Source of the DNA: Erwinia sp. E_sp_B01_1
GTDB lineage: Bacteria; Pseudomonadota; Gammaproteobacteria; Enterobacterales; Enterobacteriaceae
Direction of reading: 5' to 3'
DNA length: 64,000 bases
Assembly: GCF_036865545.1 (NCBI RefSeq)
Contig: NZ_CP142208.1
Span: 2,542,001 to 2,606,000, forward strand
Position 1 is the stretch's first letter. The number at the start of each line of letters is the position of its first letter. Positions 16,407-19,028 of the stretch are shown here, piece by piece. The translations under genes were made by a program, and so were the position numbers. Below the pieces are notes generated by a model. That model saw nothing but the letters and a program-made list of their open reading frames with translations. It was not told where the DNA came from and made no database searches.

Positions 16407-17372
16407 ATGGTTATTTACGCGCTGCGTCGCCTGGTGTTGTGGCTGGTCACCCTGTTTATGCTGACCCTGGTCGGCTTCAGCCTGAGCTACTTTACCCCTC
16501 ATGCCCCTTTGCAGGGGGCTTCTCTCCCGGATGCTTTTCTGTTCTGGTATAAAGGTCTGTTTCATCTCGACCTGGGCGTTTCCAGTATTAATGGTGAACC
16601 CATAGGCCAGCAGATTCGTGAAGTTTTTCCCGCCACGCTTGAGCTGTGCATTATGGCTTTTGCCCTGGCAATGTTAACGGGCATTCCTCTGGGCATTGCC
16701 GCTGGCGTGATGCGCAATAAATGGCAGGATAAAGCCATCAGCGCGCTTGCCCTGCTCGGCTTTTCCATGCCTGTGTTCTGGCTGGCGCTGCTACTGACGC
16801 TGTTCTTTTCGCTTAATCTCGGCTGGCTGCCTGTTTCAGGCCGGTTTGATCTGCTTTATCCGGTAAAAAATATCACCGGGTTTGCGCTGATCGATGCCTG
16901 GCTCAGTCATTCGCCCTGGCGGCATGAGATGATGATCAGCGCGTTAACGCATTTGATTCTCCCCGTAACGGCGCTGGCCGTGGCGCCAACTACCGAGGTG
17001 GTTCGTCTGCTGCGTATCAGTACCCGTGAGGTGATGGAGCAAAACTATATTAAAGCCGCGGCAACTCGCGGGCTGTCAAGACTGACCATTATTCGCCGTC
17101 ATGTGCTGCACAATGCCCTGCCGCCGGTGATCCCACGTCTTGGGCTGCAGTTCTCCACCATGTTAACCCTGGCGATGATTACAGAAATGGTCTTCAGCTG
17201 GCCTGGCCTTGGCCGCTGGCTGGTGGATGCTATCCGTCAGCAGGATTACGCCGCCATATCCGCTGGCGTGATGATGGTGGGCGGTCTGGTGATCACCGTG
17301 AATGTGTTGACCGATATCCTGGGGGCGATAATGACGCCACTTAAGCATAAGGAATGGTATGCCCTCCGATAG
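16407..17372 (+). CDS. sapB: Sap ABC transporter permease SapB
   Basis: 321-residue inner-membrane permease of the DppB/OppB type with about six membrane segments and the EAA-loop region [19 protein letters not shown] that contacts the ATPases. The C-terminus KHKEWYALR is intact even though an insertion begins within its stop region. The last codons lie in a 13-base sequence repeated at the start of sapC: TAG replaces an ancestral TAA stop. Confidence 0.95.
17359..17371 (+). repeat. Direct repeat, left copy, at the end of sapB
   Basis: ATGCCCTCCGATA, identical to 18138-18150. Here it encodes the sapB C-terminus and most of its stop codon in one frame, and in another it is a duplicated sapC start. 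The flanks of the two copies differ immediately on both sides. Confidence 0.9.
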
Positions 17373-17548
17373 GGCTTATTATCATTCAGATAAATTCAAT
17401 GAAATTAAAAATTCGAAATCATAATAATCATTAAGCACCCAATCGTGTACACATTAATCATTGGAATTCGTTTTAATTTAAATGGTTGATGTCAACTGCT
17501 CCGGATTGATGGCCTATGGTTATGTTGATGTAATGGGTAAGGCAGATT

Positions 17549-17827
17549 ATGAAAAGTGTGTGGTTTAAGAAATCAATTTTTGGGCTGATTTATCTGGTGA
17601 TTTCAGCCCTGCTCATCAGATATATCAATCCTCTTAACCACGCCATTTTTGATTCAGGTTCATGGTTGTATTTCAAACATGGACCTGGCGGATATGAATG
17701 GTTCAGTTCTGATTATGAATGGGGGAATGACCCCGCAACGTTCATATTGGCAATCATAGCGCTGATAGCTATTGCTTTAATTGTTTCATTTTTAGCCAAA
17801 AAAACCAGATATTTACTCGGCATGTAA
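17549..17827 (+). CDS. Hypothetical small membrane protein in the sapB-sapC insertion
   Basis: 92 residues with a predicted membrane helix near residues 8-25, a central polar part rich in aromatics and glycine (FKHGPGGYEWFSSDYEW) and a second helix near 66-84, then a basic tail. AAGG lies upstream at a usable distance from the ATG. I do not recognise a family. The codon use and base composition are unlike the flanking sap genes, consistent with acquisition. A topology with both ends in the cytoplasm and a periplasmic loop is inferred from the basic ends. Confidence 0.6.
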   Translation: MKSVWFKKSIFGLIYLVISALLIRYINPLNHAIFDSGSWLYFKHGPGGYEWFSSDYEWGNDPATFILAIIALIAIALIVSFLAKKTRYLLGM

Positions 17828-18027
17828 GAGTATTTAATCAACAGAATTACCATCCGATTCGGACCCAATCCCCTATCGGGTCCTATCACCTGCCAGCTTC
17901 TGTCAAAAATGTGTGGTTGGCATATCAGCCAACGCATTACAGAGTATCCTTAGTTTAAGCCAGTGAGCTTTGTCGAACAGGCTACAGGGCGATAAACGCC
18001 TGTGTTAAGCTATATTGCCTTACGGCC

Positions 18028-18078
18028 CCTGCACTTACAGCAGGAGAAGGATAGCCTCCTGCGAGGAACAACCTGCTG
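18028..18078 (+). other. Nested inverted repeats in the new sapC leader
   Basis: CCTGC/GCAGG (18028-18032 with 18040-18044), CAGGAG/CTCCTG (18041-18046 with 18056-18061) and CAGCAGG/CCTGCTG (18038-18044 with 18072-18078) share arms, so they are mutually exclusive pairings in an RNA. ACAGGC/GCCTGT pairs just upstream (17977-17982 with 17998-18003). None has a T run. It could be an RNA switch or a fragment of a mobile element; no known class was recognised. Confidence 0.4.
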
Positions 18079-18080
18079 AT

Positions 18081-18131
18081 ATGAATGCAAAAGCCCAGAT
18101 AAACCACACAGAGAAGATTTCAATAAAGTGA
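18081..18131 (+). CDS. Possible 16-residue leader peptide before sapC
   Basis: ATG at 18081 opens a 16-codon frame (MNAKAQINHTEKISIK) whose TGA ends six bases before the sapC ATG. It follows the nested hairpins. The ribosome-binding sequence is poor (GAGG 16 bases upstream). If translated, terminating ribosomes could reinitiate at sapC, replacing the lost coupling with sapB. This is inference from position only. Confidence 0.25.
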   Translation: MNAKAQINHTEKISIK

Positions 18132-18137
18132 CAGCCG

Positions 18138-18150
18138 ATGCCCTCCGATA
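18138..18150 (+). repeat. Direct repeat, right copy, at the start of sapC
   Basis: ATGCCCTCCGATA, identical to 17359-17371. It supplies the sapC start codon and the first four codons. Confidence 0.9.
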
Positions 18151-19028
18151 ATATCTATGCCGAAGAACGGCTACCCAGTACGTTGCGCAATGCCTGGCGC
18201 CTGTTTTACCGGGACACCACCGCTATGGTGGGCTTTTATGCGTTTATTGCGCTGGTGCTGGTGTGCATTTTTGGTCGCCTGATGGCACCTTATGGTCTGG
18301 ATCAGCAGTTTCTGGGCTATCAGCTGCTGCCGCCCTCCTGGTCACGCTACGGCGATGTCTCATTCTTTTTGGGAACCGATGACCTGGGCCGCGATATTCT
18401 CAGCCGGTTGATTAGCGGTGCCGGACCAACGGTGGGATCGGCGATACTGGTCACCTTTTTTGCTGCGCTTTGTGCCATGGTATTAGGAGTCTTTGCCGGC
18501 CTGACGCGGGGGCTGCGTTCGGCAATTCTCAACCACGTTCTGGATACGCTGCTTTCCATTCCCTCCCTGTTGCTGGCGATTATTGTGGTCGCGTTTCTGG
18601 GGCCAAATCTGCAGCACGCGCTGCTGGCTGTCTGCCTGGCGATCATTCCTCGCCTGGTTCGGGCTATTTATACAGCGGTGCATGACGAGCTGGAAAAAGA
18701 TTATGTGGTGGCCGCGAGGCTGGACGGCGCAAGCAGTATGAATATTCTCTGGTACGCCATTTTACCGAATATTCTGGCCCTGCTGGTGACGGAGTTTACC
18801 CGCGCGCTCTCGATGGCCATCCTGGACATTGCCGCCCTGGGCTTCCTGGATCTGGGTGCGCAACTGCCCTCTCCCGAGTGGGGAGCCATGCTGGGTGATG
18901 CGCTGGAGCTGGTTTACGTTGCCCCCTGGACCGTAATGCTTCCCGGCGCGGCTATCATGCTCAGCGTGCTGATCGTTAACCTGTTAGGTGACGGCATTCG
19001 CCGGGCCATCGTTGCGGGAGTTGAATAA
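18138..19028 (+). CDS. sapC: Sap ABC transporter permease SapC
   Basis: 296-residue permease of the DppC/OppC type with the EAA-loop stretch [22 protein letters not shown]. It pairs with SapB in the membrane. The start lies in the right copy of the 13-base repeat and has no clear Shine-Dalgarno sequence now that it is separated from sapB. A candidate -10 (CTATATT near 18011) exists in the insert. It is followed directly by sapD with no gap. Confidence 0.94.

Follow-up and report, generated by a model that had tools for sequence, protein, structure and literature searches.

A 766-bp block at the sapB/sapC overlap of an Erwinia genome as the probable relic of an integrase-bearing element

In the accessible part of one report (PMC7371120), four Klebsiella prophages sit between an intact sapB and an intact sapC. 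The accessible part of another (PMC10132054) describes a prophage at sapB with a 13-bp attB that overlaps the coding sequence of sapC, and tandem arrays of as many as three prophages at this gene of E. coli CC119. Because of these published prophages and their 13-bp attB, the kind of insertion discussed here is already known. What is new here is a tiny, probable relic at this known type of site in the genus Erwinia, together with a pattern of short leader ORFs in front of sapC.

We analyzed a stretch of 64,000 nucleotides from Erwinia sp. E_sp_B01_1 (the window), in which a block of 766 bp separates sapB from sapC. We consider it probable (about 0.85) that prophages and integrative elements with phi80-related integrases use the sapB/sapC overlap as their attB, and that the block in the window is a decayed relic of one of them.

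The split junction in the window

The two copies of a 13-bp direct repeat (ATGCCCTCCGATA), found by the repeat search, start 779 bp apart and lie at the two edges of the block (Table 1). The GC content of the block is 0.40, against 0.55 for sapB and 0.57 for sapC. The initial annotation, made from the sequence alone, had described an AT-richer insertion flanked by a duplication of the sapB/sapC overlap, with both genes intact, and the analysis bears this out: both ORFs are open and complete, and the gene positions place sapAB physically apart from sapCDF. The repeat exceeds what is expected by chance. Yet a perfect repeat is nothing special, because insertions that keep both overlapping genes intact must duplicate the overlap. 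Across 26 occupied sites the two copies of the overlap share between 6 and 14 of their 14 positions, with 13 shared in the window. Between 17300 and 18200 there is one terminator-like hairpin, whereas shuffled sequences have 0.5 on average (sd 0.8).

Table 1. Features of the split sapB/sapC junction (window coordinates)
Feature	Position	Strand	Description and basis
sapB	16407..17372	+	Open and complete, TAG stop at the left junction; ORF and Pfam BPD_transp_1 (1e-39)
Left 13-bp core, attL-like	17359..17371	+	Encodes the final SapB residues; repeat search, register with 25 other occupied sites
Terminator-like hairpin, weak	17361..17375	+	Spans the left junction; 5 pairs, then TTATTATCAT
Gene for a 92-aa protein	17549..17827	+	Two hydrophobic stretches; ORF, distant homologues, alignment, hydropathy peaks
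Degenerate right arm, candidate	17991..18135	+	Weak nhmmer match (E=0.028) to a profile of 12 arms
Short leader ORF, 16 codons	18081..18131	+	TGA stop 6 nt before the sapC ATG; ORF list
Right 13-bp core, attR-like	18138..18150	+	Carries the sapC ATG; repeat search, register with other occupied sites
sapC	18138..19028	+	Open and complete, first gene of the separated sapCDF part; ORF and Pfam

The block contains one plausible gene, and its predicted 92-aa product with two hydrophobic stretches agrees with the earlier suggestion that a membrane protein had been added to the sap operon. This gene had no match in a Pfam search and no transposase was seen, and the repeat search found no inverted repeat of at least 12 bp joining the ends of the block; the initial annotation had noted both absences. 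No further copy of the block turned up: it occurs once in the 4.80-Mb genome that carries it, and a blastn search of plasmid and phage records gave no match at E ≤ 1e-3. An Rfam search returned four chance eukaryotic matches, all far below the gathering scores.

At E ≤ 1e-3 the 92-aa protein matched one cluster in a large protein database, at 99% identity. Three distant relatives (28–30% identity) were found among 295 genomes of the family, and the residues invariant in their alignment with the protein include E57, G59 and D61. Two of the three relatives (L033 and L034), which are small membrane proteins, directly follow genes with a Tlde1 domain (PF10908), and at the locus of the third (L035) no Tlde1-domain gene was recognised in the ORF list. 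The ORF list of the window likewise shows no Tlde1 ORF adjoining the 92-aa gene. Elsewhere in the same genome, Tlde1-like sequence occurs at four places (broken into two pieces at one of them), and each is followed by a hydrophobic-looking protein (87, 174, 114 and 79 aa, the 114-aa protein by a hydropathy calculation and the other three by eye). Judging from these neighborhoods, the likeliest reading of the 92-aa protein is an orphan immunity-like protein.

At one locus of this genome (L263, from about 1458), a small protein that has two hydrophobic stretches is encoded after a Tlde1-like gene, as is an ORF that looks Hcp-like by eye.

Occupied and empty sites in Erwinia and other genera

A junction query of 1601 bp matched in all 37 genomes of the genus. 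The sapB/sapC overlap is kept in 23 of them, which supplies the empty sites in relatives that the initial annotation had asked for, and the junction is split in the other 14. In 13 of these the gap measures 383 bp to 52.4 kb. In the remaining one (G035), which is rearranged, the two sap halves lie ~165 kb apart on opposite strands. No common feature was seen among the left ends of the 14 sites, and the block of the window shares no cargo with the 12 other islands of the genus that were compared (G035 not among them), the only match being a 19-base chance one. The right arm of one species (G010) was found only at sapC, in 11 of the 37 genomes, and all 11 are occupied.

Occupancy is scattered over the genus. 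On a tree of the sap genes (37 rows, quick method) it changes 9 times, and on a tree of the rpoB region 8 times (35 of the 37 genomes, as G030 and G031 had no match); on each tree at least 7 of the changes are forced by well-supported branches. The label was equally clustered in 42 out of 500 shuffles with either tree. The rpoB-region tree pairs the window's genome as sister with the occupied G007 (support 100), and the two belong to a clade of four whose remaining members are empty. The sap tree recovers the same clade of four but does not pair these two as sisters.

The islands of the genus carry varied genes. In G005 (L036) and G033 (L049/L054/L050) the sapB/sapC gap holds, on the opposite strand, what we take to be an arn-like gene cluster, and in G033 transport-like and other genes lie beyond it. 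Two sister species, G034 (L051) and G010 (L040), share a cluster with a very long ORF (1510 and 1509 aa, respectively) that is presumably peptide-synthetase-like. Inside the gap of G015 (L044, about 2234–2398) there is a second, degenerate copy of the 3' part of sapB, which may reflect a tandem insertion of two elements or a partial duplication of the gene. In G035 (L052/L053) an integrase-family match lies in the stretch between the sapAB and sapCDF halves, and an inversion seems to have used the split site in this genome.

The site is also occupied outside the genus. In a sample of the family, 86 out of 139 genomes matched the empty-site query, and five genomes from outside the genus show a clear split (G070, G081, G100, G134 and G140). 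In three others (G058, G110 and G142) the junction falls at contig breaks or on two contigs, and among the remaining matches, some of which do not span the full junction, no split was seen. Two contigs of G110 (L173 and L174) end exactly at the sapB/sapC junction without overlapping, and this assembly may have been broken there by a repeat or a mixed population. For 80 named loci, the site is empty in 64, has a measured gap in 13 and lacks sapB within 10 kb in 3. Erwinia, Winslowiella, Pantoea, Mixta, Citrobacter and Escherichia albertii are represented among the 16 non-empty loci, 8 of which are the same records as genomes in the genus and family counts. Almost all E. coli genomes have an empty site: 5426 genomes were searched, 5369 matched, and 5363 of these have one place that covers at least 80% of the query. 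The gap of Pantoea agglomerans holds a 110-aa glycine-rich ORF (L210:8760–9092, minus strand), which has a leader of double-glycine type and may be a bacteriocin.

Integrases, right arm and leader ORF beside sapC

In E. albertii a tyrosine integrase of 409 aa adjoins sapC on the opposite strand. This integrase and those at the site in Pantoea brenneri and Citrobacter sp. have the Arm-DNA-bind_3 and Phage_integrase domains, and all three frames are open. Compared with a phage collection, the E. albertii integrase is closest to those of four Klebsiella prophages (82–83% identical), followed by phi80 and its kin (50%). In the one Klebsiella prophage record that was opened, sapC, sapD and sapF adjoin the integrase. 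Prophage genes also occur at the site in two E. coli genomes: in strain 3426, sapB and sapC are ~55 kb apart with a lambdoid-type prophage and a related open integrase between them, and in strain 2012C-4227 prophage genes follow sapB.

A tblastn search with the E. albertii integrase detected related sequence at the sapC side in 18 of the 25 occupied sites searched (10 out of 14 in the genus and 8 out of 11 outside, one being the query itself; for G035 the search covered the regions near its two ends). It detected none in the window, G008, G011, G027, G134, P. agglomerans and Pantoea sp. A4. Within the genus, this search found the integrases at the site as fragments only; for instance, G007 keeps one with E 7e-7. 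In a nucleotide comparison, a 66-base piece of the integrase arm-domain region outscored 60 shuffled controls at 25 of 30 sites, but not in the window (29.0 against a shuffled maximum of 30.5), G011, G134, G070 and G142. A PF00589 search of 14 genomes gave, among the matches listed, none inside the gaps of the 13 unrearranged sites and one in the 165-kb stretch between the sap halves of G035.

In other species the right arm upstream of sapC consists of an antisense integrase remnant and a leader. We built a profile from 12 such arms, this genome excluded, and its best nhmmer match in the whole window, a weak one, is the candidate right arm of Table 1. With a leader profile built from 15 sites, the best match in the window falls at 18066–18091 (weak, E=0.028, against 6.5 at best in a shuffled window), and with one from 24 sites at 18066–18092 (weak, E=0.098). 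All of these matches fall at the predicted place. In the block itself tblastn recognised no integrase remnant, in keeping with the low score of the 66-base piece. The block is not a complete prophage or integrative element, because it has no integrase gene at the sapC side, which a relic need not keep. Since it has no recognisable integrase remnant, shares no cargo and gives weak E-values, its descent from an integrase-bearing element of the same kind is something that we infer rather than demonstrate.

Short ORFs precede sapC at most occupied sites. At 25 of the 30 sites, an ORF opens with ATG 8 or more codons ahead of the junction, reads into the start of sapC in the sapB frame and ends at +8 or +11. 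The mean over 300 rounds of dinucleotide shuffling was 5.2 sites (sd 2.1, maximum 12), and the other two frames had 0 and 1, numbers to be read with the relatedness of the 30 sites in mind, as the 25 are not independent events and the shuffles overstate independence. Leaders of differing length hold the sapB frame. They are found beside the open integrases of E. albertii, Citrobacter, P. brenneri, E. coli 3426 and the Klebsiella phage, and likewise in relics. Five sites fail the strict frame test (the window, G034, G140, G142 and Pantoea sp. A4). The ORF of G034, like that of the window, has 16 codons and stops 6 nt before the sapC ATG, and that of Pantoea sp. A4 stops at -2.

These leaders may act as a surrogate upstream cistron for a coupled start of sapC. 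The fuller proposal is that the elements bring a surrogate cistron on the sapC side, with a start codon of its own and a stop within or shortly ahead of the sapC start, which keeps sapC coupled, mostly in the sapB frame, once sapB has been displaced, and that in old relics the integrase piece may serve as an antisense promoter of sapCDF; we hold it tentatively, at somewhat less than even odds. The leader pattern at occupied sites is possibly new: we found no earlier report of a surrogate cistron at an attachment site, a result of little weight given our thin coverage of subscription papers.

The conserved stretch upstream of sapC was first read as a promoter and proved to be the antisense of codons for the integrase arm-binding domain. 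This antisense core is more conserved than the four-fold sites of sapC in 55 out of 55 pairs of 11 genomes (0.69–0.98 vs 0.34–0.76), and its TTGC and GATAAT columns are invariant in 13 sequences. GATAAT is also present in most of the intact integrases at this site, and we take the stretch to be a conserved motif of such integrases. A promoter scan of 17300–18200 gave one site, against 2.9 in shuffles, and no match in the right arm of the window. Behind long islands, sapCDF probably needs a promoter of its own, because in G005 the main intervening ORFs run the opposite way. That an antisense piece of the integrase was exapted and kept as this promoter is conceivable from its sequence, and we rather doubt it.

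Origin of the block and comparison with known systems

The initial annotation had offered two origins for the block, and both fare poorly. One is a MITE-like, non-autonomous transposable element with a 13-bp target duplication, which we regard as highly improbable. A direct repeat at both edges, a length below 1 kb and the lack of a visible transposase would all suit such an element. It would be expected neither to lack terminal inverted repeats of at least 12 bp and further copies in its genome, plasmids or phages, as this block does, nor to leave a right arm such as that of G010 only upstream of sapC; and the differing cargo of many sizes that other species hold at the same junction is unlike a transposon family without site specificity. 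The other is a single replication slippage or illegitimate capture in this lineage that duplicated the overlap, and we give it very little credence. Two points favor it: an insertion into overlapping genes survives only by duplicating the overlap, and no mobility gene is recognisable in the block. A one-off event is at odds with a junction that is split in 14 of 37 congeners and in other genera, with integrases or their fragments beside sapC at most occupied sites.

It is also possible, though on balance unlikely, that the block is an old intergenic region bound to this locus, which spread and was lost by homologous recombination through the flanking sap genes, the present cargo having been swapped in without an integrase. 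The G010 right arm, confined to sapC in occupied genomes, speaks for such exchange, as do the scattered occupancy despite homologous arms and the integrase fragments, with no whole gene found, at the sites of the genus (G035 being searched near its two ends). Against it stand the open integrases and the prophages that occupy the site in Escherichia, Citrobacter, Klebsiella and Pantoea. It overlaps with our preferred explanation, and the region may still have begun as an integrase-borne element.

We therefore return to the sapB/sapC overlap as an attachment site and the block as a decayed relic. The 13-bp repeat is best read as attL and attR, because the site is recurrently split, integrases lie beside sapC and a 13-bp attB has been published for this position, as given in the accessible part of PMC10132054. 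The 13 bp of the window fit the published description of that attB in length and position. The element would have encoded its integrase at the sapC-side end, pointing away from sapC, and its integration would have duplicated the short core, so that sapB kept its stop and sapC its start. The body of the element and the integrase would since have been lost from the block. What remains would be an orphan cargo gene, that of the 92-aa protein, and ~150 bp of right arm, with the short leader ORF just before sapC, which would bring ribosomes to the sapC start as sapB once did.

On this reading, an odd 13-bp duplication becomes a recognisable footprint of a phage-like landing site in the overlap of two core genes, neither of which is destroyed. 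Across the family the site has received diverse cargo (the presumed arn-like cluster and peptide-synthetase-like genes, a possible bacteriocin, prophages), and tiny inserts such as the 766-bp block can be read as scars of it. If the leader does keep translation coupled, a mobile element can spare a host gene that depends on its neighbor, a cost of integration that is seldom considered.

Several described systems resemble parts of this locus. The Tlde1 effector/immunity pairs of type VI secretion, as presented in the accessible part of PMC9638812, have a parallel in the two distant relatives of the 92-aa protein that follow Tlde1-domain genes, and in the Tlde1-like genes of the same genome that precede hydrophobic proteins; the 92-aa gene itself differs in having no adjoining Tlde1 gene in the window, and its identity to the relatives is ~30%. 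The three integrases at the site resemble phi80-type tyrosine integrases in having both Pfam domains, and that of E. albertii is ~50% identical to phi80 Int over its full length, a level that is no proof of a shared attachment site. The nearest systems are the prophages at sapB/sapC, each known to us from the accessible part of its report. Those of E. coli CC119 (PMC10132054) are whole prophages, some with deletions, whereas the window holds a probable relic of <1 kb in another genus; the likeness lies in the 13-bp attB that overlaps sapC. Those of Klebsiella pneumoniae (PMC7371120) are also whole prophages, unlike the insert of <1 kb without an integrase in the window, and they share with it the identical junction and an intact sapB and sapC.
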